Below are positions 1 through 63,925 of a stretch of DNA of 64,000 nucleotides, piece by piece. Location: positions 3,005,501 through 3,069,500 of the forward strand of contig NZ_CP116808.1 in assembly GCF_028464065.1 (NCBI RefSeq), written 5' to 3'. The stretch is from Saprospira sp. CCB-QB6. GTDB taxonomy: Bacteria; Bacteroidota; Bacteroidia; Chitinophagales; Saprospiraceae. A program made the position numbers and the translations under genes. Within the stretch, counting starts at the first letter, position 1. Every line of letters begins with the position of its first letter. The notes beneath the pieces were generated by a model. The model searched no databases. It saw nothing but the letters and a program-made list of their open reading frames with translations, and had not been told where the DNA came from.

Positions 1-72
1 CGGCGAAGGGCCGAGCAGACCTGCGAGCCCCGAAACGTAGCGCCCGCCGAAGGCGGGAGGCCCCAAAAAAAT
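1..72 (-). repeat. CIR element, B-type, truncated by window edge
   Basis: GC-rich intergenic repeat read on the minus strand. It starts with a T-run and GGGGCCTCC, then a hairpin CCCGCC-TTC-GGCGGG, then the constant core around CTCGGCCC. The distal end lies outside the window. Confidence 0.8.
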
Positions 73-86
73 ATAAAAGTATCTGA

Positions 87-755
87 ATGTCTTTAAAAGA
101 GCAAACGGCTTGGCGATACGAGCGTAAGTATGTAGTTTTAGGGTATCGGCCGGCAGAAATAGAGATTTTGCTGCGGCAGTTGCCTTTTGCTTGGCGGAGA
201 CAGCATGCGCCTCGTTGGCTGCACAATATTTATTTTGACAGTATGGATTGGCATTGTTATCGGGCCAATTTGGCGGGTAGCAGTCAGCGCTATAAGTATC
301 GTTTGCGTTTTTATGGGCCTTGGCAGAATGCTTGGCAGCCGGGGCGTTTGGAGTTGAAGCAAAAAGCTGGAGAGCTGGGGCAAAAGCAGATTTGGGCCTT
401 GCCTAATTTGGATGTTAACTCGCCAAAAATGCAATTGGCGGCTATGCTTGAGCATAGTTTGCACAAAGGTTATTCTTGGGCCCCAAAAATCTATAATTGT
501 TATTATAGGCAGTATTATTCGGCTTTGGATGGGCGTTTGCGTTTGACCTTGGATAGTCAGCAAGCGGCCATGGCTATTTGGCCTAGTTCTTATTGGCAGC
601 CTAGAGGAAAAAGGCCAATGCAGGGCTTAATTTTGGAGTTGAAATATGCTGAGGAAGAGGCTGCTTTGGCAGAAGAATTGGCGCTGCAAATACCTTTTCG
701 CTTGAGTAAAAACTCGAAGTATATACAGGCGGTACAGCAATCTTATCGCCTTTAA
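87..755 (+). CDS. VTC-domain (polyphosphate polymerase-like) protein
   Basis: A 222-residue soluble protein resembling the VTC catalytic domain, the tunnel-shaped fold that makes polyphosphate in yeast and occurs in many bacterial proteins. Visible family hallmarks are RYERKY near the N-terminus (about residues 10-15), a NIYFDS strand (about 47-52), a basic YKYRLR strand (about 69-74), LELK (about 88-91) and a late LILELKY acidic strand. Alternating basic and acidic strands are expected for binding triphosphate and metal. The next gene follows after only 9 bases, so the two are probably co-transcribed. Many bacterial VTC genes sit beside DUF4956 membrane proteins; that partner is not seen here. 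Polyphosphate synthesis is inferred from family only. Confidence 0.75.
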   Translation: MSLKEQTAWRYERKYVVLGYRPAEIEILLRQLPFAWRRQHAPRWLHNIYFDSMDWHCYRANLAGSSQRYKYRLRFYGPWQNAWQPGRLELKQKAGELGQKQIWALPNLDVNSPKMQLAAMLEHSLHKGYSWAPKIYNCYYRQYYSALDGRLRLTLDSQQAAMAIWPSSYWQPRGKRPMQGLILELKYAEEEAALAEELALQIPFRLSKNSKYIQAVQQSYRL

Positions 756-764
756 AAATAAGTT

Positions 765-1508
765 ATGGCAAAGAAAACGAAGAAAATTGCGAAGGAAGAT
801 CGTCTGATTGAGTTGGAGGTGCAGAAGGCGGCCCAAGCGTATTTGGAGCATTATTATAAGACACAGGAACGGCCAAAAGTGCTTTATTCTAATTTGGAGG
901 AGCGGACCAAGCACAAGTATGGGATGAAGCGAGCGGATGGACTTTTAGCCTATCCGATGAGTCGGAGCAAGGCCTATGTAGTGTCGATGGAAGCCAAATC
1001 GCACAAAACCTTAAAAGCATTAAAGCCGTATCGAATAGATAAGCTTTGGATAAAAGATAGTTTTTGGCATGGTTTGCTATTTACGATTTTATCTGGAGTT
1101 ATGTTTTTTGTTTGGCGGATGACCGAAGAGTCTTTTTGGATTCGCTTTATGATTCCTTTGGGGGTACTTTTGGGGGCTTCTGCGCTTTACGCCTACATTT
1201 TTAGAAATAGCTACAAATATCAAGAGATGAAGGTGATTCATCAGGTCTTTCAATATCCTGCAAATGAGCAATGGTTATCCTTGTCTAATGATTCTTTTGA
1301 GATGATTGATCCAAAATTGCAGGACAACCTAATTAAAATTTGTAAGGCTAGGGGAGTTGGTGTACTTATGGTAGATCCCAAAAAAAATGTGGCCATGGTT
1401 CATGGCCCTAAAAAGCGAGGAAAACGCTGGTTTGGTGATTATTTGCACTTCTATCATGCAGAAGATGATATTCGAAAACAATTGGGATTGAAAATAAAGC
1501 AAAAATAA
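765..1508 (+). CDS. Membrane protein with PD-(D/E)XK-like motif
   Basis: A 247-residue protein I do not recognise as a named family. The N-terminal third has D58 followed by E76-x-K78 on a hydrophobic strand (VVSMEAKS), a spacing compatible with a PD-(D/E)XK or NERD-type nuclease core. Two hydrophobic segments at about residues 99-119 and 125-147 look like a transmembrane hairpin. A basic C-terminal part follows (KKRGKR). It lies 9 bases after the VTC-domain gene, suggesting an operon. The nuclease reading is an inference from a short motif; it could equally be an uncharacterised inner-membrane protein. Confidence 0.6.
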   Translation: MAKKTKKIAKEDRLIELEVQKAAQAYLEHYYKTQERPKVLYSNLEERTKHKYGMKRADGLLAYPMSRSKAYVVSMEAKSHKTLKALKPYRIDKLWIKDSFWHGLLFTILSGVMFFVWRMTEESFWIRFMIPLGVLLGASALYAYIFRNSYKYQEMKVIHQVFQYPANEQWLSLSNDSFEMIDPKLQDNLIKICKARGVGVLMVDPKKNVAMVHGPKKRGKRWFGDYLHFYHAEDDIRKQLGLKIKQK

Positions 1509-1644
1509 CTACTATTTGTGACATTGGTTGATTCTTTAGTGTGCTGATTTGTTTTAAAAAATAGAATAGAAAAGCGTACCTTATGTGACGGCCAATAGTC
1601 TATAGCTGAAACTAAGCTCAGCAGCTTAATTTATAACTAATTAC

Positions 1645-1664
1645 ATCCGAAATAGAATTCGGAT
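1645..1664. other. Small inverted repeat in the 1509-1741 gap
   Basis: ATCCGAA and TTCGGAT form a 7-bp stem around a 6-base loop, followed by an AT-rich run ending in TTTTT. It could be a weak terminator for the upstream gene or a regulatory site for the downstream one. The rest of the 233-bp gap shows no gene. Confidence 0.3.
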
Positions 1665-1694
1665 TATAGTATATATTTTTCAGATCTAAAAGTG

Positions 1695-1702
1695 TAACTT
1701 TG
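1695..1702 (+). promoter_or_regulatory. Candidate -7 box (TAnnTTTG) for the MORN-like gene
   Basis: TAACTTTG matches the Bacteroidota -7 consensus and lies 40 bases before the ATG at 1742. No clear -33 TTTG is seen at the right spacing, so this is tentative. Confidence 0.35.
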
Positions 1703-1741
1703 CGGGAATATCTGCTCTAACATTCTATAAACAAGCAAATT

Positions 1742-2716: not shown

Positions 2717-2723
2717 CCCTAAG

Positions 2724-4392: not shown

Positions 4393-4515
4393 TTTGGGGC
4401 TGCCCCTCCCTGCGGTCGGGTCGGGCTATGTCAGGGCTCGCAGGTCTGCTCGGCCCTGCGCCGCCTTCGGCGGCTGGGTCTGGCCCTACGGGCCACCCTT
4501 TTCTATCCCTCAGCC
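4393..4515 (+). repeat. CIR element, A-type
   Basis: Forward copy starting TTTTGGGGCTG and ending ATCCCTCAGCC; the terminal GGCTG and CAGCC pair. Internal hairpins are GCCGCC-TTC-GGCGGC and TGGCCC-TAC-GGGCCA around the constant CTCGGCCC and GGTCTG cores. Confidence 0.85.
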
Positions 4516-5971: not shown

Positions 5972-6142
5972 AGCTTGGCTGCCTTGGCCGAAGGCCAAAT
6001 GGCCCAGCGCTGCGCAGCGGTGGGCGTAGCCCAGACCCAGTTTTTTTGAGCGCAGCGAAAAAAAACGCAGGGCCGAGCGAATAGCGAGCCGCGCAGCCTA
6101 GCGGCGGCCGCCCGCCCCTTGAAGGGCGGCCGCGGGCCCAAA
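5972..6142 (-). repeat. CIR element, C-type, with extra outer hairpin
   Basis: Reverse copy. Read on the minus strand it starts in a T-run with GGGCCCGCGGCCGCC and ends GCAGCGCTGGGCC, the C-type pair. Hairpin 1 is a long GCGGCCGCCC stem. Hairpin 2 is made of T7 and A7 arms, so a GC stem has been replaced by an AT stem. The T-run is the U-tract of the TPR-gene terminator. Confidence 0.8.
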
Positions 6143-8175: not shown

Positions 8176-8427
8176 ATATGAAATGATAAAAGGTATTGGG
8201 GCCAAAAGTCCCCTATTATAAGGTATTCTCCGATGAATAAGAATTACCCATCAGGCTTTATTTCAAGTCCATTTAACTTCGCAAACTTACTAAAAGTTTG
8301 TCAGATTAGCCCTCGGCCCTGTTAAAAACTTCCAAAGGTGGAGGCTTTGCCCCTTTTTTAACCCCTCTTATCTATCCTGCATAGGGCCTAACTATTTGTT
8401 TATAAAGGGATATGTAGGTAATTTGGG

Positions 8428-8551
8428 GCCTTCGCCTCGCTGCGCTCGTCGGCGCTACGTTTCGCAGCTCGCTGTTCGCTCGGCCCTGCGGCGGCAAAGC
8501 CGCCTGGGGCTGGCCCTTTGGGCCACTGCTGCACATCGCTAAGCCTGCGGG
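8428..8551 (+). repeat. CIR element, B-like
   Basis: Forward copy beginning TTGGGGCCTTC and ending CATCGCTAAGCC. Hairpins GGCGGC-AAA-GCCGCC and TGGCCC-TTT-GGGCCA are intact. The terminal pairing is imperfect, the only full copy where it is. The 8206-8427 stretch upstream shows no gene. Confidence 0.8.
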
Positions 8552-14934: not shown

Positions 14935-15054
14935 GGGGCCTCCGCTGCGGCTTCGCCTTGCGGCGCTACGTTGCGCAGCTCGCTATTCGCTCGGCCCTGC
15001 GCGGGCTATGCCCGCTTGGTCTGCGGCTGCGCCGCACTGCTTCACATCGCTAGG
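14930..15054 (+). repeat. CIR element, B-type
   Basis: Forward copy from the lgt terminator T-run and GGGGCCTCC to ATCGCTAGGCC. Hairpins are GCGGGC-TAT-GCCCGC and TGCGGC-TGC-GCCGCA. The ends GGCCT and AGGCC pair. Confidence 0.85.
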
Positions 15055-15128
15055 CCGTTCTGGCCTACGGCCAGTTGGGACCAAATACCATAGTTGGAGC
15101 AACCCCAACTAGTACTGGCCATTACATC

Positions 15129-15510
15129 GGACCATTGGCTGGAAAAAAAATGGTCTGAAAGAACTTCCCAGGGCATTGGCTGGAAAAATAATGTAGTAAA
15201 ACAACTGCATTGGACCATTAGCTGGAAAAAAAATGGTCTGAAAGAACTTCCCAGGGCATTGGCTGGAAAAATAATGTAGTAAAACAACTGCATTGGACCA
15301 TTGGCTGGAAAAAAAAAGGTCTGATAGAACTTCCCAGCGCATTGGCTGGAAAAATAATGTAGCAAAACAACTGTATTGGACCATTAGCTGGAAAAAAAAT
15401 GGTCTGATAGAACTTCCCAGCGCATTGGCTGGAAAAATAATGTAGTAAAACAACTGCATCAGCGCATTGGCTAGAGAAATAATGTAGCAAAACTAATGTA
15501 TTGGCTTTAT
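15129..15510 (+). repeat. 83-bp tandem repeat array (4 units plus degenerate tail)
   Basis: Units start at 15129, 15212, 15295 and 15378, exactly 83 bp apart, with a partial degenerate fifth copy from 15461. Each unit is two related half-units (41 and 42 bp) that both contain ATTGGCTGG or ATTAGCTGG followed by an A-run. In the first half GACCATT and AATGGTC form a hairpin stem; in the second CATT and AATG do. The unit length is not a multiple of 3, so it is not a protein repeat. The region 15511-15608 holds no recognisable feature. Confidence 0.9.
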
Positions 15511-15631
15511 GAGGGAAGTCAGAAGTCTATAAAGGGAGAAAATAGGACCATCAGCCGAGCTAGAAAGCCATAAAAACAACAACAGGGGAGGCTAGGCGGA
15601 GCTAGGACCTACTGGCCGCAGGCCAGAACGG

Positions 15632-15754
15632 CTGAGGGATGGGCAGCAGGGCCGCCAAAGGCGGCAGACCGAGGCGCTTTGCGCCGAAGGGCCGAGCGAT
15701 TAGCGAGCTGCGAGACAGCCCGACCCCGAAGGAACGAGGGGGCAGCCCCAAAAA
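15632..15754 (-). repeat. CIR element, A-type
   Basis: Reverse copy. On the minus strand it starts in a T-run with GGGGCTGCCCC and ends ATCCCTCAGCC. Hairpins are GGCGC-AAA-GCGCC and GCCGCC-TTT-GGCGGC. A separate small hairpin CTGGCC-TGC-GGCCAG follows at about 15611-15625. Confidence 0.85.
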
Positions 15755-20073: not shown

Positions 20074-20202
20074 TTTTGGGGCTGCCCCGCCCTTCGGTCG
20101 GGTCGGGCTGTCTCGCAGCTCGCTGTTCGCTCGGCCCTTCGGCGCCTTCAGCGCCTCGGTCTGCCGCCTTTGGCGGCCCTGCTGTCCATCCCTCAGCCTG
20201 CG
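20074..20202 (+). repeat. CIR element, A-type
   Basis: Forward copy starting TTTTGGGGCTGCCCC and ending ATCCCTCAGCC. Hairpins are GGCGC-CTTCA-GCGCC and GCCGCC-TTT-GGCGGC. A further GGCGGC-TTT-GCCGCC hairpin follows immediately. Confidence 0.85.
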
Positions 20203-20285: not shown

Positions 20286-20410
20286 GGCCTAGCGATGTGG
20301 AGCAGTGGCCGTTAGGCCAGACCGAGCCGCTGAAAGCGGCGAAGGGCCGAGCGAATAGCGAGCTGCGAAACGTAGCGCCGACGAGCGTAGCGAGGCGGAG
20401 GCCCAAAAAA
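20286..20410 (-). repeat. CIR element, B-type
   Basis: Reverse copy. On the minus strand it starts in a T7 run with GGGCCTCC and ends CATCGCTAGGCC. Hairpins are GCCGC-TTTCA-GCGGC and TGGCC-TAAC-GGCCA. It is directly joined to the partial copy at 20411-20507. Confidence 0.85.
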
Positions 20411-22086: not shown

Positions 22087-23730
22087 ATGACCTGGGGAAT
22101 TATCATTGCGATAGTGTTGGTGTTATTCATCTTTACGCTATTGACGCTAGGAGAGGGGCTGTTGAAGGTAACGGCCAGCCAAGCTGGGGAAGACACCAGC
22201 GACTACTCCGTTTTGCCCACGAACCTGCAGAGTTTGTTAGGTTTGGGTAAAAAAAAGGGGGAGTATGTACCGGATGATGCGACAGTAAAGCGTTTCAGCC
22301 GTGGTTTTGATGTAAACTTGGCAGGAGGGCCTTCATTGGGCCAGGATGGCATTCGTGAAGTGCGATCGGCTACATATGCATTAAAGCCAAAAGATTTTGT
22401 GGGGATGTCGCCTATTCCTAAGGTGATGCCAGAGATTGGGGCTACTGTTAAGGCAGGGGAGCCCTTGTTTTACGATAAGGTACATCCTGAGATTATTTAT
22501 GCTGCACCAGTGAGCGGAGAGTTCATTGAGTTGCGTCGTGGGGAGAAGCGTTCGATCAATGAGTTGGTTATTTTGGCTGACAAAGAGGGAATGCAATACC
22601 ACAAGCATGAGGATGTTCCTAATTTGGATACGGCTAGTCGTGCCGACTTAGTTGATTTCTTGACGGCGAGTGGGGCATGGCCTTTCTTGCGTCAGCGTCC
22701 GTTTGATGTAGTTGCTGATCCTAGCATGACACCAAAATCTATTTTCATTTCTACATTTGATACGGCTCCTTGGGCTTCTGATGCTAATTTGTCTGTAGCA
22801 GGCAAAGAGGCTGCTTTCCGTAAAGGATTGGAGGCTTTGGCTATGCTTTCTGGTAGCAAGGTACATTTGGGGGTAAATGCTTTAGCTGCGGAGAAGCCGT
22901 CTGATGCTTTCTTGAAAGCTGATGAGGTAGAAGGTGTAGAGGTACATTATTTTCAGGGGCAACACCCTGCGGGTAATGTAGGGGTACACATTCATCATGT
23001 AGACCCAGTACTTCCGAATGGTCAAGTAGTATGGCATACAGATGTACATGGCGTACTTTTGATTGGTCAGTTATTGTTGGAAGGTATTTTTGATACGTCT
23101 AGAGTCATTGCTGTAGGTGGTGCTGAGTTGCCAGGTGAAGAGGGCTATTATGCTCGTGTACATCAGGGGGTAAACATTGCTGCTTTATTGGAAGGCATGG
23201 CAGATGATATGACTACAGAAAAAGCTTATGTACGTAATGCTGAGGGACAGAAAGAGGAGAAAATGGTAGAGGTGCGCAGCATCCGCATTGTATCTGGTGA
23301 TCTTTTGTCTGGTAAGCAGGTGGAGCGAGATAGCTTTTTGGGTTTTTATGATGATCAGTTATCTGTAGTAAAAGAAGGTAATTATTATGAGTTGTTTGGT
23401 TGGTTAGTTCCTCAGACGGGGCACCCCACACGTTCACGGACATTTCCTGGTGGATTTTTCCCGGGCACTCATTATGTACCTGATACAAACACGAATGGAG
23501 AGAAGCGTGCCTTTGTGATGACAGGGGAGTATGAAAGCGTTTTGCCCATGAATATTTATCCTCAGCATGTAATGCGTGCCATTTTGGCCAAAGACTTTGA
23601 AAAAATGGAAGGTCTTGGTTTGTTAGAGCTTGGTGAGGAGGATATTGCTATTTGTGAGTATGTATGTACTTCTAAGCAACCTTTGCAAGCAATTTTGAGA
23701 GAAGGCCTAGATGAGCTTCGTGCTCAGTAG
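22087..23730 (+). CDS. nqrA: Na+-NQR subunit A with N-terminal TM extension
   Basis: Peripheral quinone-binding subunit of the sodium-pumping NADH:quinone oxidoreductase. The canonical NqrA start (KIKKGLDLPIAG-like) corresponds to VKRFSRGFDVNLAGG at residue 67. The first 66 residues are therefore an addition, and residues about 4-21 are a strong hydrophobic helix (WGIIIAIVLVLFIFTLLT). Canonical NqrA lacks a membrane anchor and is near 450 residues; this one is 547. Typical regions such as HPAGNVGVHIHHVDP and PLQAILREGLD-like segments remain. It is the first gene of nqrABCDEF, 52 bases before nqrB. Confidence 0.92.
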   Translation: MTWGIIIAIVLVLFIFTLLTLGEGLLKVTASQAGEDTSDYSVLPTNLQSLLGLGKKKGEYVPDDATVKRFSRGFDVNLAGGPSLGQDGIREVRSATYALKPKDFVGMSPIPKVMPEIGATVKAGEPLFYDKVHPEIIYAAPVSGEFIELRRGEKRSINELVILADKEGMQYHKHEDVPNLDTASRADLVDFLTASGAWPFLRQRPFDVVADPSMTPKSIFISTFDTAPWASDANLSVAGKEAAFRKGLEALAMLSGSKVHLGVNALAAEKPSDAFLKADEVEGVEVHYFQGQHPAGNVGVHIHHVDPVLPNGQVVWHTDVHGVLLIGQLLLEGIFDTSRVIAVGGAELPGEEGYYARVHQGVNIAALLEGMADDMTTEKAYVRNAEGQKEEKMVEVRSIRIVSGDLLSGKQVERDSFLGFYDDQLSVVKEGNYYELFGWLVPQTGHPTRSRTFPGGFFPGTHYVPDTNTNGEKRAFVMTGEYESVLPMNIYPQHVMRAILAKDFEKMEGLGLLELGEEDIAICEYVCTSKQPLQAILREGLDELRAQ

Positions 23731-23782
23731 GGTTTGATTATAAAACGTTGGATTCAGCCACCTAAATAAGAACTAATTTGTT

Positions 23783-25084
23783 ATGGCATTAATAGACTTC
23801 TGGAAACGGATTGAGCCTAGCAAGGAGAATCAGTTTCTTCATGCTACTTATGATGCCTTTTTTACCTTTATGTTCAAGCCAAACTTGACGACCAAGGGAA
23901 AAGGGGTGCACATTCGTGATGCTATGGATTTGAAGCGCACTATGTTTCATGTAGTGATTGCTTTACAACTCTGCCTATTGGTAGGAACTTTTAATATTGG
24001 CCATCAGCACTTTGTTGCTCTTGGTATTCATACAGGTTTTATTGAAGCTTTTCACCTCAAGCTTGTTTTTGGCTTGGTACAATTGCTTCCTATTGTTATT
24101 GTTGCTAATGTAGTAGGGCTTGGAATTGAGTTTTACTTTGCTGCCCGTAGAGGTCATGCTGTAGAAGAGGGCTTCTTGGTTTCGGGTATGCTTATTCCTT
24201 TAATCATGCCCCCAGATATTCCTTTGTGGATGTTGGCTTTGGCCGTAGCTTTTGCTGTGGTTATTGGTAAAGAAGCTTTTGGCGGAACAGGGATGAACGT
24301 ATTGAACGTAGCGCTTTTGGCTCGTGTATTCATCTTCTTTGCATATCCTACAGAAATCTCAGGGGATGGCCCTTGGGTTGCTGCTTGGGCTTTAGCCGAA
24401 GATGGAGCTACTAAAGTAGCTGATTACTACTGGGCACACACTATGTTCAATCCTATTTTTGAGGCTGCTGGATGGAGTACCTTTGTGCAGGGAACACCCT
24501 TTGTAGCGGGCTATTCTGGAGCTACTCCTTTGGCCCTTGGTGCTGCACAAGGTTGGGCGCAGGTAGATGCTGCCACTGGCGAAGTAACTGGAGGTATTCT
24601 TTCTCAGTATTCTGCTTTGCAGATGTGGATGGGCGGAATTCCTGGTTGTATCGGTGAAACTTCTAAGCCTGCAATTATCTTTGGTGCTATCTTCTTGTTG
24701 ATCACTAGAGTAGCTAGCTGGAGAGTGATGCTTTCTTTCGTTATTGGTACAGCACTCACTGGAATGATCTTCAATGCTTGGGATGCTACCGTATTTATGA
24801 ATGTACCTTGGTATCAGCACTTTGGTATGGGCGGTTTGCTATTTGCCATGGCATTTATGGCAACTGACCCCGTTACTGCTGCTCAAACAAACCGTGGTAA
24901 AATTATCTATGGTTTCTTGATCGGTTTCTTCGGTATGGTCATCCGCGTGATGAACCCCGCTTATGCTGAAGGATGGATGCTTGCGATTCTACTCATGAAC
25001 GTTTTTGCGCCATTGGTAGACCACTACGTACTAGAAGGAAATATTAGTAAACGATTGAAACGCGCGAAGGAATATGCAAAGTAA
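23783..25084 (+). CDS. nqrB: Na+-NQR subunit B
   Basis: A 433-residue polytopic membrane subunit that carries covalent FMN and riboflavin and forms the sodium path. The flavinylation motif SGATPL is present, with the FMN-bearing threonine at T248. About ten hydrophobic helices are visible, from around residue 55. It overlaps nqrC by 11 bases, so translation is coupled. Covalent FMN requires ApbE, which is not in the window. Confidence 0.95.
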   Translation: MALIDFWKRIEPSKENQFLHATYDAFFTFMFKPNLTTKGKGVHIRDAMDLKRTMFHVVIALQLCLLVGTFNIGHQHFVALGIHTGFIEAFHLKLVFGLVQLLPIVIVANVVGLGIEFYFAARRGHAVEEGFLVSGMLIPLIMPPDIPLWMLALAVAFAVVIGKEAFGGTGMNVLNVALLARVFIFFAYPTEISGDGPWVAAWALAEDGATKVADYYWAHTMFNPIFEAAGWSTFVQGTPFVAGYSGATPLALGAAQGWAQVDAATGEVTGGILSQYSALQMWMGGIPGCIGETSKPAIIFGAIFLLITRVASWRVMLSFVIGTALTGMIFNAWDATVFMNVPWYQHFGMGGLLFAMAFMATDPVTAAQTNRGKIIYGFLIGFFGMVIRVMNPAYAEGWMLAILLMNVFAPLVDHYVLEGNISKRLKRAKEYAK

Positions 25085-25883
25085 TACTCAAATCTATTTG
25101 TATGTGCTCAAGCTAACTGGAGTTATTGCCATTGTGCTTTCGCTCTTGTTCAATAGTTTGAACCCTATGTTCTTGAAGAACAAAGAAACAGCTAAGAAAA
25201 AAGCAATTCTTAGTTGTATCCCAGGCCAAGATATGTCGGCTGATGTGCAGGCTGTTTTTGACCAAAAAGTGAAAATCTCTATTTTAGATGCTAAAGGAGA
25301 AATTCTCTTTGCTCAAGAGAAATCTGCTGCAGAATCTGAAGCAGAAATTAAAGCTGCTTTAGACAAACTCAATGAGCGTGGCCAAGGTGTAAAATATAGC
25401 AAACTTGCTGATATTGACTTGGCCTCAGAAGAGAAGTTCGCTCCTGAAAATCGCGTTTACCCCATTTATAAGTATGAGGGAGATGCAGGAAAAAGTTATC
25501 ATGTACTTGCTGTTCGTGGAAACGGACTCTGGGATAAAATCTGGGGCTATGTAGCACTAGAATATGCCGACAAATGGCAAGTGGCAGGGGTAAACTTTGA
25601 CCACAAAGGAGAAACTCCTGGTCTTGGTGCCGAAATTAAAGATAATGCTGATTTCAAAGCCCAATTTGAAAATAAGCAGATCTTTGACGAAGCAGGTAAA
25701 TATGTGTCTGTACAAGTGCTAAAGAAAAATATCAAACATCCTGAATATCAAGTAAAGGCCATCTCTGGTGCAACGGTTACTTGTGACGGTGTGTCTGAAA
25801 TGATGCAGCGCGGTATCGGCAATTACTTGCCCTATATCAAAGGCCTTAATGGTGCCGATAGTAAAGCAATCGGACAGCGCTAA
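25074..25883 (+). CDS. nqrC: Na+-NQR subunit C
   Basis: A 269-residue subunit with one N-terminal TM helix (about 8-27) and a periplasmic FMN domain. The flavinylation motif is SGATVT with T234 as attachment site. It overlaps the 3' end of nqrB. Length agrees with the family. Confidence 0.95.
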   Translation: MQSNTQIYLYVLKLTGVIAIVLSLLFNSLNPMFLKNKETAKKKAILSCIPGQDMSADVQAVFDQKVKISILDAKGEILFAQEKSAAESEAEIKAALDKLNERGQGVKYSKLADIDLASEEKFAPENRVYPIYKYEGDAGKSYHVLAVRGNGLWDKIWGYVALEYADKWQVAGVNFDHKGETPGLGAEIKDNADFKAQFENKQIFDEAGKYVSVQVLKKNIKHPEYQVKAISGATVTCDGVSEMMQRGIGNYLPYIKGLNGADSKAIGQR

Positions 25884-25933
25884 AACGCTCCCCTAAATTG
25901 CATTTGATCTAATTCGTTTAAATTTTTAGCATT

Positions 25934-26599
25934 ATGGCTCAGGATACACAAAATGTAGCCGAGGCGGAAAAGAAAGAGCCCGCCTTTGCCTTCGGTAAGC
26001 AGGAACGTCAGCTACTGACTGACCCTCTTAACGATAATAACCCTATTACCGTACAGGTATTAGGTATCTGCTCGGCCCTAGCGGTAACCTCTCAGGTTTA
26101 TCCCTCGCTAATCATGGCTGTAGCCCTTATCTTTGTAACTTCTTTCTCTAACCTAATTATCTCGATGCTCCGCAATAGCATCCCTGGTTCAATCCGTATG
26201 ATTGTCCAACTTCTCGTTATTGCAGGTCTCGTACAGGTAGTAGAGATTGTACTTGGTGCTTTTGCTTATAGCGCCTACGAAAGCTTGGCCGTATTTATCG
26301 GTCTAATTATCACCAACTGTATCGTAATGGGACGCCTCGAGGCCTTCGCTATGGCCAACAAACCTTGGCGCTCTTTCCTCGATGGTCTCGGTAACGGTAT
26401 CGGTTATGGTGTAGTGCTTGTCGCTATGGCTATCGTACGCGAACTTTTTGGAAAAGGAAGTTTTATGGGCTGGAAAATTATGCCCGAAGCTTATATCGCC
26501 AACAACTTGATGGTGCTACCCGCAGCTTCTCTTTTCATTATCGGCATCTTTATTTGGATTCAGCGTAGCTTGAACCCCAAACTTGTCGATGTATCTTAG
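25934..26599 (+). CDS. nqrD: Na+-NQR subunit D
   Basis: A 221-residue integral membrane subunit with six hydrophobic helices, homologous to NqrE and RnfE. Recognisable segments are DPLNDNNPITVQVLGICSAL and the conserved NCIVMGRLEAFAM, carrying the cysteine that helps ligate the intramembrane iron centre. The soluble start (about 35 residues) is a little longer than usual. It is 50 bases after nqrC and 42 before nqrE. Confidence 0.95.
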   Translation: MAQDTQNVAEAEKKEPAFAFGKQERQLLTDPLNDNNPITVQVLGICSALAVTSQVYPSLIMAVALIFVTSFSNLIISMLRNSIPGSIRMIVQLLVIAGLVQVVEIVLGAFAYSAYESLAVFIGLIITNCIVMGRLEAFAMANKPWRSFLDGLGNGIGYGVVLVAMAIVRELFGKGSFMGWKIMPEAYIANNLMVLPAASLFIIGIFIWIQRSLNPKLVDVS

Positions 26600-26641
26600 A
26601 TCTGAACCTCTTTTTCCAAACGCTAATAATATTCAACTATC

Positions 26642-27247
26642 ATGGATGCGTTGAACGTATTTATCAAAGCGGCCTTTATCGATAACATGATCCTAGCCTA
26701 CTTCCTAGGAATGTGCTCTTATCTAGCCGTATCGAAAACTGTAAAAACAGCCTTCGGTCTTGGCCTCGCCGTTATCTTTGTACTCGGTATTACCGTGCCT
26801 ATCAACTGGCTACTCAATACATATATTCTCCAAGATGGAGCTATCGTAGAAGGTGTAAGCCTCGTATTCCTACGCTTGATCCTCTTTATCGCTGTTATCG
26901 CCTCTATGGTACAGCTCGTAGAAATGATCATCGAAAAGGTCTCCCCATCACTCTACAACTCGCTGGGGATCTTCCTGCCACTCATTACCGTAAACTGTTC
27001 TATCCTCGGTGGATCACTCTTTATGGTGTCTAGAGAATATGAGTTTGGTACTTCTGTATCTTTTGGCCTCGGTGCTGGTGTTGGGTTCTTTCTCGCTATC
27101 GTAGCTATTGCCGCTATCCGCGAAAAACTCAAAACAGCTGCTATCCCACCCGCTCTCCGCGGTCTAGGAATGGCCTTTATCCTTACTGGCCTAATGGGCC
27201 TTGCCTTTATGAGCCTCATGGGTATTGATCCCGCGGCTTTTAACTAA
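26642..27247 (+). CDS. nqrE: Na+-NQR subunit E
   Basis: A 201-residue six-helix membrane subunit paired with NqrD. The segment [19 protein letters not shown] and the later [12 protein letters not shown] each hold the conserved cysteine of the intramembrane iron-sulfur site. Length is typical. It lies 40 bases before nqrF. Confidence 0.95.
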
Positions 27248-27287
27248 TCAAAGCGATTTTCGTCTGAATTAAAAAATAGCTGACCTC

Positions 27288-28632: not shown

Positions 28633-28670
28633 AAAAGCCTCTGTTCTTTACAGGGGCTTTTTTATTTTTT
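28633..28670 (+). terminator. Terminator of the nqr operon
   Basis: AAGCCTCTG pairs with CAGGGGCTT with one wobble, followed by a long T-rich run. The same T-run opens into the next CIR element. Confidence 0.8.
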
Positions 28671-28791
28671 TGGGGCCTCCCGCAGCAAGCTGCGGGCGCT
28701 ACGTTTCGGGGCTCGCTAATCGCTCGGCCCTGCGCGGGCTAAGCCCGCTGGGTCTGGCCCTTTGGGCCACCCCTCCACATCGCTAGGCCAA
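28664..28791 (+). repeat. CIR element, B-type (clearest copy)
   Basis: Forward copy from the T-run and GGGGCCTCC to ATCGCTAGGCC. Hairpins are CCCGCAGC-AA-GCTGCGGG, GCGGGC-TAA-GCCCGC and TGGCCC-TTT-GGGCCA. The ends GGCCT and AGGCC pair, giving a cloverleaf-like plan. The rest of the gap up to 28903 shows no gene. Confidence 0.88.
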
Positions 28792-32217: not shown

Positions 32218-32252
32218 CAGTTGTTTGTTGCTGATCTGTTTCAAAGATTATT

Positions 32253-32374
32253 TTTTTGGGGCTGCCCCTCGCTTCGCTCAGGTCGGGCTGTGTCAGGGCT
32301 CGCTATTCGCTCGGCCCTGCGGCGGCTTTGCCGCCTTGGTCTGGCCTGCGGCCCCCCTTTTCCATCCCTCAGCC
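32253..32374 (+). repeat. CIR element, A-type
   Basis: Forward copy starting in T7 with GGGGCTGCCCC and ending ATCCCTCAGCC. Hairpins are GGCGGC-TTT-GCCGCC and GGCC-TGC-GGCC. It sits in the 5' region of the RlmI-like gene, in antisense. An extra hairpin of GGCGGC-AAA-GCCGCC follows at about 32382-32396. Confidence 0.85.
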
Positions 32375-32445
32375 AAAAGAAAGGCGGCAAAGCCGCCCAG
32401 CACCTTGGCCTAAAGGCAAAGGCCCAAAAATAGGCTTTTTAACGG

Positions 32446-33099: not shown

Positions 33100-33158
33100 A
33101 ATGGATGGTTTAGCGGCAGTTGAGGGCGGCCAAGCCGCCCCTGGCCAAAGGCCAGAAC

Positions 33159-33278
33159 GGCTGAGGGATGGGCAGCAGTGGCCCAAAGGGCCAGACCCAG
33201 CGGGCTTAGCCCGCGCAGGGCCGAGCGATTAGCGAGCTGCGAGACAGCCCGACCCGACCGAAGGGAGGGGCAGCCCCA
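33159..33278 (-). repeat. CIR element, A-type
   Basis: Reverse copy, minus strand GGGGCTGCCCC to ATCCCTCAGCC. Hairpins are GCGGGC-TAA-GCCCGC and TGGCCC-TTT-GGGCCA. Two extra hairpins follow at about 33123-33154 (GGGCGGC with GCCGCCC, CTGGCC with GGCCAG). Confidence 0.85.
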
Positions 33279-33283
33279 GATTA

Positions 33284-36671: not shown

Positions 36672-36789
36672 TTTTTGGGGCCTCCCACCTGCGGCGGGCG
36701 CTACGTTTCGGGGCTCGCTGCTCGCTCGGCCCTGCGCCAGCTTTGCTGGCTTGGTCTGGCCTTCGGCCACCCCTGCACATCGCTAGGCC
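36672..36789 (+). repeat. CIR element, B-type, inside the heme locus
   Basis: Forward copy, T5-GGGGCCTCC to ATCGCTAGGCC. Hairpins are GCCAGC-TTT-GCTGGC and TGGCC-TTC-GGCCA. A hairpin GGCCCC-TTC-GGGGCC follows. It lies between the permease and the ATPase genes. Confidence 0.85.
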
Positions 36790-38765: not shown

Positions 38766-38888
38766 GGCTGAGCTGCCCAGCGGGTGGCCGAAGGCCAGAC
38801 CGAGTTTTGAGCGTAGCAAAAAACGAAGGGCCGAGCGAACAGCGAGCCCAGAGGGGAGCGACCCGCCCGCTAGGGCGGGGCAGCCCCA
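38766..38888 (-). repeat. CIR element, A-type
   Basis: Reverse copy, minus strand GGGGCTGCCCC to GCAGCTCAGCC. Hairpin 1 is CCGCCC-TAGC-GGGCGG. Hairpin 2 is an AT stem with GTTTT and AAAAC arms. Hairpin 3 is TGGCC-TTC-GGCCA. It lies between hmuS and the TonB receptor. Confidence 0.85.
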
Positions 38889-41100: not shown

Positions 41101-41221
41101 TGGGGCCTCCGCTGCGGCTTCGCCTTGCGGCGCTACGCTTCAGGGCTCGCAGGTCTGCTCGGCCCTGCGGCCTGACGGCCTTGGTCTGCGGCTTCGCCGC
41201 CCCCTTTCGCATCGCTAGGCC
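41101..41221 (+). repeat. CIR element, B-type, left arm of an inverted pair
   Basis: Forward copy of 121 bp from TGGGGCCTCC to GCTAGGCC. It is identical at 120 of 121 positions to the reverse complement of 42290-42410. The pair encloses the hairpin array. Confidence 0.9.
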
Positions 41222-41369
41222 GCTCATCTTTTCGCCTTGCTTTAAATGCCTGTTTTCAGCCGTTTTGCAGTTGGCTATTTGCCCAAATCAATTTTTCTGG
41301 ACCAATTGCCGCCCTGCAAATAGCTTGAAGAAGTTTCTTTGCACTGATTTGTTTGCTCAGGATAGGGCT

Positions 41370-41902
41370 GGCGTTGCGCCGGAGGCATCTGCATTGATAC
41401 ATTTAGCTCTGGCGTTGCGCCAGAGGCATCTGCATTGATACATTTAGCTCTGGCGTTGCGCCAGAGGCATCTGCATTGATACATTTAGCTCTGGCGTTGC
41501 GCCACAGCCGTCTGCATCATTACATTTAGCTGTGGCGTTGCGCCACAGCCGTCTGCATCATTACATTTAGCTCTGGCGTTGCGCCACAGCCGTCTGCATC
41601 GTTACATTTAGCTCTGGCGTTGCGCCACAGCCGTCTGCATCATTACATTTAGCTGTGGCGTTGCGCCACAGCCGTCTGCATCATTACATTTAACTGTGGC
41701 GTTGCGCCACAGCCGTCTGCATCATTACATTTAGCTGTGGCGTTGCGCCACAGCCATCTGCATCATTACATTTAGCTGTGGCGTTGCGCCACAGCCATCT
41801 GCATCGTTACATTTAGCTGTGGCGTTGCGCCACAGCCATCTGCATCGATACATTTAACTAGGGGGAATCCCCCAAGGCATCTGCATCAATACATTTAGCT
41901 AG
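41370..41902 (+). repeat. 41-bp hairpin tandem array (12 copies plus a variant 13th)
   Basis: GGCGTTGCGCC recurs exactly every 41 bp from 41370 to 41821 (12 copies). Each copy is a hairpin plus a linker close to ATCTGCATCATTACATTTAGCT. The arm sequences come as CTCTGG with CCAGAG (copies 2-3) or CTGTGG with CCACAG (copies 5 and 8-12). Copies 4, 6 and 7 have the first left arm and the second right arm. Copy 13 at 41862 has a different stem, GGGGG-AAT-CCCCC, in the same place. No open frame is maintained (41 is not a multiple of 3). Confidence 0.93.
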
Positions 41903-42013
41903 GGGAAGCTGTTTAAGGCCCTATCTTTTTTTTCTGGGCTGCCCCTACGACAGTTTAGCTAGGGAGGCTTAAAACCAAAATATAGAAAACTCTTGTATTT
42001 AATCGCTTGTCAT

Positions 42014-42289: not shown

Positions 42290-42410
42290 GGCCTAGCGAT
42301 GCGAAAGGGGGCGGCGAAGCCGCAGACCAAGGCCGTCAGGCCGCAGGGCCGAGCAGACCTGCGAGCCCTGAAGCGTAGCGCCGCAAGGCAAAGCCGCAGC
42401 GGAGGCCCCA
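42290..42410 (-). repeat. CIR element, B-type, right arm of the inverted pair
   Basis: Reverse copy matching 41101-41221 at 120 of 121 positions. Its T-run is the U-tract of the nhaC terminator. Confidence 0.9.
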
Positions 42411-46631: not shown

Positions 46632-46765
46632 GGCCTAGCGATGCGGCGGGGTGGCCGAAGGCCAGACCAAGTTTTTTGAGCGCAGCGAAAAAAAACGAAG
46701 GGCCGAGCAGACCTGCGAGCCCCAAAGCGTAGCGCCGACGAGCGTAGCGAGGCGGAGGCCCCAAA
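46632..46765 (-). repeat. CIR element, B-type
   Basis: Reverse copy, minus strand GGGGCCTCC to GCATCGCTAGGCC. Hairpin 2 is an AT stem (GTTTTTTTT and AAAAAAC arms), hairpin 3 TGGCC-TTC-GGCCA. A GGCGGC-AAA-GCCGCC hairpin lies outside the end at 46613-46627. Confidence 0.85.
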
Positions 46766-48780: not shown

Positions 48781-48900
48781 TGGGGCTGCCCCTCCCTTCG
48801 GTCGGGTCGGGCTGTGCCGTGGCTCGCTATTCGCTCGGCCCTTCGCGGGCAAAGCCCGCTCGGTCTGCGGCTGCGCCGCCCCACTTTCCATCCCTCAGCC
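48777..48900 (+). repeat. CIR element, A-type
   Basis: Forward copy, T-run and GGGGCTGCCCC to ATCCCTCAGCC. Hairpins are GCGGGC-AAA-GCCCGC and GCGGC-TGC-GCCGC. A GGCGGC-AAA-GCCGCC hairpin follows at about 48920-48935. Confidence 0.86.
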
Positions 48901-50793: not shown

Positions 50794-50917
50794 GGCTGAG
50801 GGATGGATAGTGGTGCGGCGCAGCCACAGACCGAGCGGGCTTTGCCTGCGAGGGCCGAGCAGACCTGCGAGCCACGGCACAGCCCGACCCGACCGTAGGG
50901 AGGGGCAGCCCCAAAAA
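50794..50917 (-). repeat. CIR element, A-type
   Basis: Reverse copy, minus strand GGGGCTGCCCC to ATCCCTCAGCC. Hairpin 2 (GCAGGC-AAA-GCCCGC) and hairpin 3 (TGTGGC-TGC-GCCGCA) each carry one imperfect pair. The remainder of 50666-51017 shows no gene. Confidence 0.84.
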
Positions 50918-55718: not shown

Positions 55719-55732
55719 TTTAGGGGCCCGCG

Positions 55733-55855
55733 GCCGCCCTTTTTAGCGGGGCGGCCGCCGCTAGGCTCCGCAGCTCGCTATTCGCTCGGCCCTGCGGGCT
55801 TCACTTCGTTTCGCCCTGGGTCTGGCCTACGGCCACTGCTGCGCAGCGCTGGGCC
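55733..55855 (+). repeat. CIR element, C-type
   Basis: Forward copy GGGGCCCGCGGCCGCC to CGCAGCGCTGGGCC; the ends GGCCC and GGGCC pair. Hairpin 1 has GCGGCCGCC arms, hairpin 3 is TGGCC-TAC-GGCCA. No long T-run precedes it. Two hairpins follow at about 55856-55890. Confidence 0.85.
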
Positions 55856-56015: not shown

Positions 56016-56027
56016 AGTATAGAGGAG

Positions 56028-56186
56028 TGCAGGCCCGCAGGCTAGACCGAAGCGCATAGCGCTGAAGGACCGAGCAGACCTGCTAGCCCCGACAACCAGC
56101 CTCGAAAGAGGCGCCAGTTCGATGAAGTAAACGACAACAAGGCCTTTAGGCCGTCTTCGACGACTGAAAGGAGTAGCGCCCCAAAA
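56028..56186 (-). repeat. Degenerate CIR element with insert module
   Basis: Reverse copy with the T-run and GGGGCGCTACTCC start, an internal module with GGCCTAAAGGCC and TTGTTGTCG, and the CTCGGTCCTTC core. Hairpin 2 is AGCGC-TAT-GCGCT. The outer ends no longer pair clearly. Confidence 0.65.
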
Positions 56187-60737: not shown

Positions 60738-60933
60738 TTTTGGGGCCTCCCGCCTGCGGCGGGCGGTTACTCCCGTTGGTCGTCGAAGACGGCCTAAAGG
60801 CCTTGTTGTCGCTTTGGGGCTCGCTGTTACTTGCTTTGCTGCGTCGGCTCCCGTTGGTCGGGTCGCTCGGCCCTGCGGCCGCCTTTGGCGGCTTTGGTCT
60901 GGCCTGACGGCCACCCCTACACATCGCTAGGCC
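60738..60933 (+). repeat. CIR element, B-type, enlarged with insert modules
   Basis: Forward copy TTTTGGGGCCTCC to ATCGCTAGGCC, 196 bp instead of about 120. Between hairpin 1 and the core lies the GGTTACTCC..GGCCTAAAGGCC..TTGTTGTCG module, and the core loop itself is expanded. Hairpins CCCGCC-TGC-GGCGGG, GCCGCC-TTT-GGCGGC and TGGCC-TGAC-GGCCA are intact. Confidence 0.82.
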
Positions 60934-60973
60934 AACCCTTCTAGTTTACTTTATTCACCTTTTAAAACTATAT

Positions 60974-61477: not shown

Positions 61478-61501
61478 ACTTGGTCCAGCAGGACTAGGCG
61501 C

Positions 61502-61543
61502 AAGCGGTCCCAAAACCATTGGTTTTGGGACCGCTTTTTTTTT
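61502..61543 (+). terminator. Terminator of dps
   Basis: AAGCGGTCCCAAAACC and GGTTTTGGGACCGCTT form a perfect 16-bp stem with an ATT loop, followed by nine T residues. Confidence 0.92.
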
Positions 61544-61559
61544 GCTCATCTGCGCATTT

Positions 61560-61683
61560 GGCCCAGCGCTGCGGAGGGGTGGCCTTCAGGCCAGACCGAG
61601 CGGGCGAAGCCCGCGAAGGGCCGAGCGAACAGCGAGCCCCGCAGCATAGCGGCGGCCAGCAAAGCTGGCCGCGGGCCCCAAAT
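61560..61683 (-). repeat. CIR element, C-type
   Basis: Reverse copy, minus strand TTTGGGGCCCGCGGCC to GCAGCGCTGGGCC. Hairpin 1 is GCGGCCAGC-TTT-GCTGGCCGC, hairpin 2 GCGGGC-TTC-GCCCGC, hairpin 3 TGGCC-TGAA-GGCCA. Confidence 0.86.
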
Positions 61684-61698
61684 TTAAAATATAATCGC

Positions 61699-63564
61699 CT
61701 AGATTTTAAGGAGTTTGAAATGATGTTCTTGCTCTGCTTGGCGAATGCAAAGCAGGTAGGCGCCAGCAGGCAATTGGGCCAGTTGCAGCTGCCATTGCTT
61801 GGCCGAAAAGCTTTCTTGTACTAATAATTGGCCCTGCAAATTGTAGAGCCGGGCTTGGCCAGTTTGGGCCATTTCCCAATAGATATTTAGCTCGTTTTGG
61901 GTGGGATTGGGAGCAATTTGCAGCGGTAATTGCTCGGCTGTTTGCAAACTAATAATTGGCGATTGGGTTTGATCGCTTTTCAGTTGATAATAATAGGTTT
62001 TCTTAGCGCCTAGGTGCTGGTCCAGATAGTGATCCTCTGCCTCAAATTGGCCCAAAAACTCCCAATCCATGGCATTTTGGCTGCGGAACAGCTGCAGTTC
62101 TGTTTGGGGGGGAAGATTTTGCCATTGCCAGCTAATATCGGCCATTTGGTTATTGAGTAGTTCGGCCTCAAAATCGAGTTTTTCCTGGCTCAAAAGAGTC
62201 ATTTGGCTGCAGGCATTGCCTAGGGTATCGCCCCAGATTTGGTCGATCCATTCGGGATGGTCAATAAAGGGATTTCGGTTGCCCTGTATGCCATAAACCG
62301 CATTATTACGGGCCAATTCTTTATTGCTAACGGGATCATTTGCGTGCCAATTGAGCAAAAGTTGAAGTAGCCAGGGCGCAAAGGCGGTGCAAGGATCGCT
62401 AGACATAGCGCAGCTGCCCGCACTACTTAAAGGTTGCCAACTGGCCCAGTCAGATTGATAGCGGCAGGCCATATAAAAATACATGCGGGCATAATCGCCT
62501 TTATACTCATCGATGGGTTCAAAATAGTTGCCCCCACAAGGCAAACTGGGGCTTTCGCCGACCATAAAGCCATTGCTGCCCGTTCGGCTAGCGAGCGTAA
62601 CCAAACCTGGCGGATGATTGCTTTTAGATCCGTTGAGGCTGCCATCCGAAGGCAAAATATGGTGCATATCGGTATAGGCACTATCTGTATTAGCCGTGCC
62701 GCCGCCCCACCAAGACTTGGGAAAAGAGTGTTCTCTTTGGTAGCAATTGCCTTCTCCGCCTGGGCAAGAACCTTGGTCTCTATCGCTGCAGGGATCGAGT
62801 TCGTACTCGCCTGTTGCATTGGGGAAATCGGTAAATACATCCCAGATAATTGTGGCATTGCCTGCATCATTTTGGCGAAGATCGGTATGTAAAATGGCAT
62901 CCCAAACGTCATAGTCGCTAGAGGTGTACTCTATTTTATTTTGTTGGCGAATTAGTTGGTGTAAGTCGCTTTTAAGGGCACAACAATTTTGACTGCCATC
63001 AATAGCCGCATAATAATCGGCCAAGATGCGGATATTATCGAGCTTATAGGATTTGCTTTGGCTAGCATAACCGATGTATCGAAAGGCAAAATAGACCGTA
63101 GACCCGCTAATGTTATCTAAACTAATTGCGGGATGTCGTTGAAAAAGCGTAGAAAAGCAGCTCAAGGAATTGATATCGAGCAGGCGAAGATCAAGTGCTT
63201 GCCAAGAAGCCGCGGCAAGGTCGGCCGCACTGCCACCGCCATTATAATTGCTAGAATAAAACAGTTCTAAATTGGGCCCTTGATAATAATCATTGTAATC
63301 GAAGAGCAAAAATTCCTCTTGGTAGAGGTCCAAATTGATGGGGGGCGAAATCAGCCAATCTTCATCGTCGGCGGCCCCATAGCCATTGCAAGTAGCTTCC
63401 CCATTTTGAGCGGTCCAGATGTCGGTATCATCACTTAGACTAATTGCGGACCAGCTCCCTAAACCAGTGGCAAAATCTTCCTGATGAACAATTGTTTGTG
63501 CGCTAATTGGCCCTAAGGTCGCCAAAAAGCAAAAAAGTAATAGTGGTTTTAAGTCAAGCATCAC
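61699..63564 (-). CDS. Secreted endonuclease I with T9SS sorting domain
   Basis: A 621-residue extracellular nuclease. The signal peptide runs to about residue 22 (PISAQ). Residues about 25-190 are a jelly-roll or MAM-like module (DFATGLGSWSAISLSDDTDIW...). The NucM/EndA endonuclease I domain follows, with the catalytic and metal motif REHSFPKSWW, the HHILPSDGSLNGSKSNHPPG segment and YKGDYARMYFYMACRY. The last 80 residues (QIAPNPTQNELNIYW...AYLLCIRQAEQEHHFKLLKI) are a type A T9SS domain. It probably degrades extracellular DNA for nutrition or prey digestion, along with the M43 protease and GH25 lysozyme. Confidence 0.92.
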   Translation of the reverse strand: MMLDLKPLLLFCFLATLGPISAQTIVHQEDFATGLGSWSAISLSDDTDIWTAQNGEATCNGYGAADDEDWLISPPINLDLYQEEFLLFDYNDYYQGPNLELFYSSNYNGGGSAADLAAASWQALDLRLLDINSLSCFSTLFQRHPAISLDNISGSTVYFAFRYIGYASQSKSYKLDNIRILADYYAAIDGSQNCCALKSDLHQLIRQQNKIEYTSSDYDVWDAILHTDLRQNDAGNATIIWDVFTDFPNATGEYELDPCSDRDQGSCPGGEGNCYQREHSFPKSWWGGGTANTDSAYTDMHHILPSDGSLNGSKSNHPPGLVTLASRTGSNGFMVGESPSLPCGGNYFEPIDEYKGDYARMYFYMACRYQSDWASWQPLSSAGSCAMSSDPCTAFAPWLLQLLLNWHANDPVSNKELARNNAVYGIQGNRNPFIDHPEWIDQIWGDTLGNACSQMTLLSQEKLDFEAELLNNQMADISWQWQNLPPQTELQLFRSQNAMDWEFLGQFEAEDHYLDQHLGAKKTYYYQLKSDQTQSPIISLQTAEQLPLQIAPNPTQNELNIYWEMAQTGQARLYNLQGQLLVQESFSAKQWQLQLAQLPAGAYLLCIRQAEQEHHFKLLKI

Positions 63565-63693
63565 GATTAAAATTAGGTGAGTGTGTTGGAATTGCTTGCC
63601 TCGGTGTTGTTTTGCTTGGCTTTCAATTTAACATTTATATTATATAGACTATGGAGTTAGTTTAGCCCAGCAGCTCTAATCTTTTGAAGATGC

Positions 63694-63817
63694 TTTGGGG
63701 CTGCCCCTCGCCTTCGGCTCAGGTCGCTCCACTTCGCCGCTCGCAGGTCTGCTCGGCCCTGCAGCCCTGCGGGCTTTGGTCTGGCGCCTGTGGCGGCCCT
63801 GCTCCGGCAGCTCAGCC
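63694..63817 (+). repeat. CIR element, A-type
   Basis: Forward copy TTTGGGGCTGCCCC to GCAGCTCAGCC. Hairpin 2 is AGCCC-TGC-GGGCT. A GGCGGC-TTC-GCCGCC hairpin follows at about 63822-63836. Confidence 0.84.
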
Positions 63818-63925
63818 TGCGGCGGCTTCGCCGCCTGTAGATCGCAGAAAATCACCCCCCAGAGAAATAAAAAACTTGCAAAAGCCAAGGAAAACCCCTA
63901 AACTGAAACACAAAAATTTAACAAG

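Follow-up and report, generated by a model that had tools for sequence, protein, structure and literature searches.

A dispersed intergenic element of Saprospira with a covarying branched fold and hairpins replaced as blocks at conserved positions

Repetitive extragenic palindromic (REP) sequences and REPINs, together with their RAYT genes, are the closest described systems to the element reported here, and share with it a high copy number, an extragenic location, the formation of hairpins and compensatory stem changes (PMC3116915). Gene conversion has been discussed for REPs, to judge from a title (Higgins 1988) in the reference list of PMC2267715, and PMC6006769 describes Bacteroidetes genes of TnpA-Y1 subclass 2.6 with 'atypical secondary structures' on their flanks, further copies of which occur elsewhere in the genome. 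The element was analyzed in a 64-kb stretch of DNA (the window), which is G000:C1:3005501-3069500 of the 4.24-Mb genome of Saprospira sp. CCB-QB6 (G000; C1 is contig NZ_CP116808.1). It is about 120 nt long and numerous, and its branched fold covaries among copies. Copies with placeable flanks mostly keep their position and orientation between species, and orthologous copies differ by replacement of whole hairpin blocks.

On balance, we favour the reading that these copies belong to an ancient, dispersed repeat family found across the class and maintained for its fold. It would behave like REPINs without having their anatomy, its stems would be exchanged between copies by short-tract recombination, and the lower strand would most likely be the one that is read.

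When the window was searched with covariance models built from 28 Saprospira copies (R1) and from 67 copies of several genera (R2), the same 23 copies were found with both, 12 on the + and 11 on the - strand. Window copies were among the sequences that went into each model. All 23 places listed in a first-pass annotation of the sequence were thereby recovered, as was its claim of two orientations, and the constant parts that it named (a T-run plus GGGGC at the start, a middle segment and GGTCTG) are present in the window copies. With R2, 21 of the 23 copies scored E <= 2e-7, the others being 1-64 (E 1.5e-5) and 56020-56094 (E 0.02). The copies, with R2 E-values, and the parts of the copy used as reference for the anatomy are as follows.

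1..64, - strand: element copy, 5' half, cut at its 3' side by the window start (E 1.5e-5)
4396..4515, + strand: element copy, P1 type GCTG/CAGC (E 2.6e-19)
6001..6140, - strand: element copy, P1 type GCCC/GGGC, hairpin 2 a T-run/A-run stem (E 4.8e-19)
8425..8545, + strand: element copy (E 3.1e-20)
14935..15056, + strand: element copy (E 1.1e-21)
15630..15749, - strand: element copy (E 6.4e-18)
20078..20198, + strand: element copy (E 3.3e-18)
20286..20405, - strand: element copy (E 9.4e-21)
28672..28789, + strand: element copy, reference for the anatomy (E 3e-26)
28665..28671, + strand: T-run preceding the reference copy (T in 78-95% of 150 copies at -4 to -1)
28674..28678, + strand: P1 5' arm GGCCT, with 3' arm AGGCC at 28785-28789 (covaries as GCCT/AGGC, GCTG/CAGC, GCCC/GGGC, GCTT/AAGC)
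28680..28695, + strand: hairpin 1, hypervariable
28708..28711, + strand: P3 5' arm GGGG, with 3' arm CCCC at 28770-28773 (covarying pair types in 419 parsed copies)
28712..28730, + strand: conserved core CTCGC-NNNNN-GCTCGGCCC, including the swapping loop module
28734..28748, + strand: hairpin 2, hypervariable, capping P4 (28726-28729 with 28751-28754, GGCC/GGTC)
28756..28768, + strand: hairpin 3, hypervariable
32258..32374, + strand: element copy (E 3e-18)
33159..33277, - strand: element copy (E 3.2e-23)
36677..36789, + strand: element copy (E 2.9e-20)
38766..38887, - strand: element copy, T-run/A-run hairpin 2 (E 8e-16)
41102..41221, + strand: element copy (E 1.2e-14)
42290..42409, - strand: element copy (E 8.3e-15)
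46632..46762, - strand: element copy, T-run/A-run hairpin 2 (E 2.4e-15)
48782..48900, + strand: element copy (E 9e-21)
50794..50912, - strand: element copy (E 1.4e-17)
55723..55855, + strand: element copy, P1 type GCCC/GGGC (E 3.8e-16)
56020..56094, - strand: degenerate or composite copy, matching without the P1 arms (model positions 33-106; E 0.02)
60742..60933, + strand: composite copy with extra modules at the hairpin 1/P1b junction and in the core loop (match 60797-60933, E 2e-7; 5' end set from the sequence)
61560..61679, - strand: element copy, P1 type GCCC/GGGC (E 1.1e-20)
63697..63817, + strand: element copy, divergent subtype (E 1.9e-8)

The earlier statement that copies never lie within a gene holds for the most part. 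One window copy covers by 28 nt the TTG start of a mechanically called open reading frame (ORF, 32446-33186), other window copies overlap ORFs of less than 200 aa that were judged spurious, and across eight sampled regions 31 of 558 cores lie inside ORFs kept by a crude gene caller. The remark that no named family with this plan was known agrees with Rfam 15, which gave 0 matches at the gathering threshold over the whole window and, at E up to 5 in window 32150-33400, eight matches that all fell far below gathering. No description of the family was found in the literature searched, and a word search of the main text of the S. grandis WHT genome paper returned none of the words repeat, CRISPR, noncoding, ncRNA, mobile or intergenic.

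From its 5' end, the element runs through the T-run, the P1 arm, hairpin 1, the P1b and P3 arms, CTCGC and a module of 5-6 nt (AGGTCT or TNNTC), followed by GCTCGGCC, which includes a P4 arm, hairpin 2, GGTC (P4), hairpin 3 and the P3', P1b' and P1' arms. P1 closes the fold, P1b and P3 are long-range helices, and P4 is capped by hairpin 2. The three hairpins and outer stem proposed at first are all there, and the inner helices P1b, P3 and P4 have to be added to that plan. In a profile of 150 copies, TTTT stands immediately outside and GGGGC inside the 5' boundary, while the 3' boundary lies between GCC and an A, G or T.

Some copies also carry extra hairpin modules, GTTACTCCC...TTGTTGTC and TTACTTGC...GGTCGGGTC, at element junctions (window 60742-60933, and regions of G000, WHT, Lewin and DSM 2844). 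By a rough context rule, the 82 pattern hits of module M2 fall at the hairpin 1/P1b junction (40), at the 3' junction (23), after GGGGC (12) and elsewhere (7), and the 14 hits of module M3 lie in the core loop. At Lewin 341564, compared with WHT, the second module is a precise core-loop insertion, and hairpin 1 differs as well.

Other repeats were observed close to element copies. Tandem arrays with units of 41 bp and 83 bp, at window 41281-41977 and 15042-15539, lie shortly past element copies. In the 3' flanks of G000 copies there is a second intergenic family of palindromes, in which variable outer stems enclose GGTTGAAACC, and GC hairpins, likewise variable and intergenic, stand directly past the element.

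The fold is carried by covariation, which was measured in three sets of copies. Among the 23 window copies, standard pairs fill 89.9% of 789 cells, compared with 68.2% after shuffling and 34.6-58.6% with slid partners (at most 58.6% in all three sets). Both sides have changed in 27 of 37 pairs, in line with the first description of hairpin arms changing together. Four of five covariation measures were reached by 0 of 500 shuffles; the fifth, the number of further pair types (48 against 47.4 shuffled), was not above the shuffles. In 58 copies from other genera of Saprospiraceae, 89.1% of 1802 cells are paired (63.7% shuffled) with both-side changes in 35 of 37 pairs, and in 22 distant copies, 21 of them from outside the family, 87.9% of 629 cells are paired (66.1% shuffled) with double changes in 30 of 37.

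When all 6786 column pairs of the other-genera set were ranked by mutual information, 18 of the top 20 were structure pairs; for Saprospira the figure was 15 of the top 20. Mutual information also gave an additional Watson-Crick pair in P1b (T-A 26, C-G 19, A-T 4, others 7). These alignments were fitted by covariance models and therefore lean towards the structure. The P1 and P3 tables, which were parsed by sequence anchors without model or pairing from 419 of 558 raw copies of the eight regions, agree with the model-fitted result. P1 occurs as GCCT/AGGC (165), GCTG/CAGC (156), GCCC/GGGC (50) and GCTT/AAGC (23), and P3 as GCAG/CTGC (167), GGGG/CCCC (87), AGGG/CCCT (58), GCCG/CGGC (22), GTGG/CCAC (16) and GCGG/CCGC (10), with 20 further GCAG/CCTG entries that we read as a one-base parsing shift. 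Pairing is kept even where the arms lie far apart (about 60 nt in P3 and 105 nt in P1). Covariation of such long-range helices across copies, genera and families supports the original suggestion that a folded RNA or single-stranded DNA is selected.

The same data bear on a purely mutational origin, in which one arm would serve as the template for its partner when the DNA is replicated (quasi-palindrome correction) and the fold would not be under selection. Long copy-specific stems, such as hairpin 1 in other genera, and the presence of other variable palindromes in G000 speak for such a process. It is nevertheless improbable as the whole explanation, as the arms of P1 and P3 covary at the distances given above, the unpaired junction core is recognisable across families, and the block changes described below use stems that are present in other copies.

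Separately, a non-Watson-Crick covariation was observed between CGCTAYG and CAKCGCT. Among copies showing both motifs (sets A2, A3 and A5), C/T occurs 49 times in Saprospira and 14 times elsewhere, T/G 14 and 31 times, C with G twice and T with T never.

Orthologous copies were compared in the S. grandis strains Lewin, DSM 2844 and WHT, to which G000 is about 92% identical over window 22087-28616. Orthology was scored only where both flanks were placed. Exactly one counterpart in the same orientation was found for 46 of 54 G000 copies in WHT, 49 of 57 in Lewin and 43 of 52 in DSM 2844, and no one-copy locus was inverted in 745 directional comparisons. Among 66 directional comparisons in which no core lay between the flanks, the five with a gap of at most 130 were aligned, and none of these five looked like the clean empty site with a target duplication that an insertion element or MITE would leave.

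At these fixed places the stems differ. When Lewin and WHT were compared at 72 parsed loci, with flanks 96.6% identical, only 14 loci were unchanged in all segments. Hairpin 2 was unchanged at 46 loci and differed by one edit at 2, by two or three at 2 and by four or more at 22; for hairpin 3 the corresponding numbers were 39, 12, 9 and 12. Since 22 of the 26 changes in hairpin 2 amount to four edits or more, the idea that stems are actively rewritten gains support. Two parsers, one of which kept 428 copies with both halves and the other 419, gave nearly the same results for hairpin 2 and P3, and the 22 large changes in hairpin 2 appear in both.

P3 was unchanged at 52 loci, changed in both arms at 15 and in one arm at 5. 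In all 15 two-arm changes both alleles are fully paired, and in 14 of them hairpin 2 and/or hairpin 3 also differ, both being the same in the remaining one. Of the five one-arm cases listed, two appear to be parsing shifts and the other three genuine mismatch intermediates. Arms are seldom compensated step by step at a single locus. Because hairpins and P3 change as blocks, pairing appears to be kept mostly by exchange of whole blocks, with few mismatched intermediates, and the wholesale swapping of stems at a fixed spot, with the shape preserved, suggests that the fold is more important than the sequence.

The 13-base core GCTCGGCCCTKCG has 1037 exact occurrences in G000 and, as a control, none when read backwards. 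DSM 2844 has 985 occurrences, Lewin 958 and WHT 949. In the 56 other relatives sampled the count per genome is 0-2, and two of these, assemblies of the same genus, have none. The 53-kb plasmid of G000 (G000:C2, L106-L108) carries 22 copies at E <= 2.1e-6, a density about equal to that of the window or higher. When one window copy was used as a query against other plasmids and phages, two Saprospira plasmids and no phage were matched.

Beyond the genus, the covariance models were run over the search tool's own groups around G000, here called family and class. Only the best 18 (R1) or 8 (R2, R3) candidates per genome were scored, and the E-values are rough. R1 matched 31 of 199 genomes and 24 of 112 genera of the family, three of the 31 genomes being Saprospira, the source genus of R1. 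R2 matched 10 of 395 genomes of the class, seven of which lie outside the family and none of those a source of R2 sequences. A third model (R3) was built from 22 copies of the R2 class search, one of them from the family, and it matched 39 of 395 genomes and 24 of 197 genera. Eight of the 39 had supplied R3 sequences, G000 was recovered at 1.4e-10, and 19 of the 39, spanning 11 family labels, were matched at E <= 1e-6. NCBI taxonomy places S. grandis in Saprospiraceae, class Saprospiria; the search tool's taxonomy (GTDB) names the class Bacteroidia. Similar repeats may also occur in Flavobacterium genomes.

Most of the distant copies have a recognisable junction core (e.g. CTCGCTGTTCGCTCGG). 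Their 5' flank is often rich in T, and the majority end at the 3' side in a sequence like CATCCCTCACGC. In one genome of another genus (G125, loci L146-L149), several 118-nt copies are near-identical, unlike the hypervariable copies of Saprospira, and they are perhaps a younger expansion.

The distribution bears on two possible partner enzymes. If the element were REP/REPIN-like mobile DNA moved by a Y1 enzyme (RAYT/TnpA-REP), the compensatory stems and extragenic spread reported for REPINs (PMC3116915) would be expected, and Y1 genes are indeed present in all ten genomes of one sample, three complete Saprospira genomes with DSM 2844 among them, although in carriers and non-carriers of the element alike. 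We see little chance that this is the explanation. At E <= 1e-3 no Y1 gene is matched in ten of 20 element-bearing genomes (most are drafts, 82-100% complete), and for three Y1-less carriers from one genus all eight scored candidates match the element. Lewin has a single Y1, whose identity to any of the three in G000 does not exceed 54%. Four of seven Saprospira Y1 genes were inspected, and the element copies closest to them, at about 0.8, 0.9, 1.5 and 2 kb, are no nearer than the general density of copies would give. No GTAG foot stands at the element boundary in 150 copies. Y1/RAYT was rejected as a required partner on the strength of the ten carriers that lack a match.

A type XIII retron-like locus was observed at L099:1524-8583 (G000:C1:969524-976583), encoding a WGR protein, SWIM_XIII (E 1.8e-232) and RT_XIII (E 1.5e-188). 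Between the SWIM and RT genes lies an element copy in the orientation of the RT gene. This neighbourhood would be the argument for a retron reverse transcriptase that makes or spreads the element, a proposal to which we attach next to no credence. Of the 24 genomes in which RT_XIII was matched strongly (E <= 1e-150, a cut of our own), 7 carry elements, against 24 of 175 without such a match, and outside Saprospira the figures are 4 of 21 against the same 24 of 175; element-rich genomes without the retron exist. As the presence of the element does not follow that of RT_XIII, the type XIII retron was rejected as a partner.

Which strand folds was addressed by gene context and by asymmetries within the fold. 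Among 144 G000 copies with callable neighbours, 55 are antisense and 42 sense to tandem genes, 32 lie between convergent and 15 between divergent genes, and no clear sense bias relative to tandem genes is seen. The T-run is equal in the four contexts (mean 5.9-6.4 T in 8 bases) and is therefore part of the element or of its target rather than a gene terminator alone. Along the first 400 kb of the contig the two strands carry 65 copies each, a test of replication bias only if this segment lies within one replichore.

Two asymmetries point to the lower strand. Among distinct hairpins with 3-nt loops, 83 top-strand loops are T..C, 2 are G..A and 86 are others, and 72 of the 83 T..C loops are closed by C-G; the corresponding counts are 19, 0 and 20 in other genera and 15, 0 and 15 in the window. 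T..C loops on the top strand are GNA loops on the lower strand, which are unusually stable in DNA. In minimum-energy folds, 1101 of 2836 long-range pairs form on the lower strand versus 426 on the top strand with RNA parameters, and 987 versus 351 with DNA parameters. One inner pair is A.C in 57 of 149 cells and never G.T, which points the same way. We lean towards the lower strand, perhaps as single-stranded DNA, as the folded one.

Several observations weigh against a fold-maintained lower strand with stems exchanged between copies. Two pairs favour the top strand: P4 contains one that is G.T there in 145 of 150 copies and would be A.C on the lower strand, and among 147 cells of another inner pair 69 are G.T and none A.C. 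Outside P1b and P4, G.T and A.C deviations are about equal (64 and 54). Outside elements, 20 of 53 three-nt loops of GC hairpins are also of the T..C or G..A kind, where orientation is undefined. The best single-sequence fold recovers at most 39% of the long-range pairs in Saprospira (60% in distant copies), so that most of them are missed in that genus. Exact donors are few as well: in samples covering about a tenth of each genome, 2-10% of parsed copies have an inner block that recurs in another sampled copy of that genome.

The G.T pairs in P4 and at the inner position, the covariation of the stems and a junction core that stays unpaired and recognisable across families would suit a top strand transcribed as a structured RNA, i.e. 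a new noncoding RNA or RNA-element family selected for its fold. Its stems would drift by compensation, and their shuffling by recombination would be a by-product. We consider this rather unlikely. Copies are sense and antisense to flanking genes alike, G.T is not generally commoner than A.C once P1b and P4 are set aside, and the loop bias favours the lower strand. Nor was a Bacteroidota promoter pattern seen at the T-run in the upstream base profile of the copies, which was judged by eye.

For the repeat family maintained for its fold, the following mechanism is suggested. Stems would be replaced by short-tract non-allelic recombination between copies (template switching or gene conversion), which would start in the conserved core segments flanking each hairpin. 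Since something would read the folded strand, products whose arms do not pair would be lost or brought back to pairing, and the object read would most likely be the lower strand (ending ...GGCCCCAAAA) when it is single-stranded. The family would then work like a REPIN-type structured DNA repeat, once spread by some enzyme, and present copies would rarely move. As to the cell's use of the element, we infer a recognised fold and nothing more specific.

A more definite version is put forward only tentatively. According to it, this is an undescribed Bacteroidota element in which selection acts on the branched single-strand fold, each genome maintains about a thousand copies at fixed places and continually redistributes interchangeable stem cassettes among them, and a putative protein reads the folded lower DNA strand (or an RNA). 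The element would point to such a fold reader in a whole bacterial class, and the hundreds of copies per genome are natural replicates in which short-tract recombination between repeats, and selection acting on a nucleic-acid fold, can be measured.

Dispersed bacterial repeats are usually described by their sequence, whereas the present element is defined by a complex fold that is kept across families. The 'atypical' structures of subclass 2.6 resemble it in being repeated, in belonging to Bacteroidetes and in having no GT[AG]G foot, a comparison that rests on their description in PMC6006769, and they are possibly an earlier sighting of part of this family. According to that source they flank their Y1 gene, whereas the nearest element copies lie 0.8-2 kb from the four Saprospira Y1 genes concerned. 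Subclass 2.6 proteins have the motif NHxH/YIHxNP; by our reading, four Saprospira Y1 proteins have DHIH/DHLH and YI..Q as in class 1, and two of the four have the Q--HH form of subclass 1.2. REPs and REPINs are palindromes of 20-40 nt or doublets of these, bear a GTAG or CGTC foot and need a cognate RAYT (Y1) gene, whereas the element has about 120 nt with nested long-range helices, no such foot at the boundary of 150 copies and no Y1 match in half of the 20 tested carriers. As tested, it fails two defining features of REPs, the foot and the cognate Y1.

Integron attC sites are likewise recognised as a folded single strand of variable sequence, and they form one long hairpin and lie in cassette arrays. 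The element has a branched fold and is dispersed singly, at conserved positions and in both orientations, which makes identity with attC unlikely. BOX, ERIC and Rickettsia palindromic elements are modular repeats. They are also dispersed, intergenic and foldable (as listed in PMC2267715), and the difference lies in a fold kept across families without the sequence of its stems, which swap at fixed loci. Double-hairpin or repetitive hairpin-forming elements of mitochondrial DNA are dispersed too, some with complementary substitutions (PMC2800124), whereas the element described here is bacterial, branched and class-wide, and is built around a conserved junction core.

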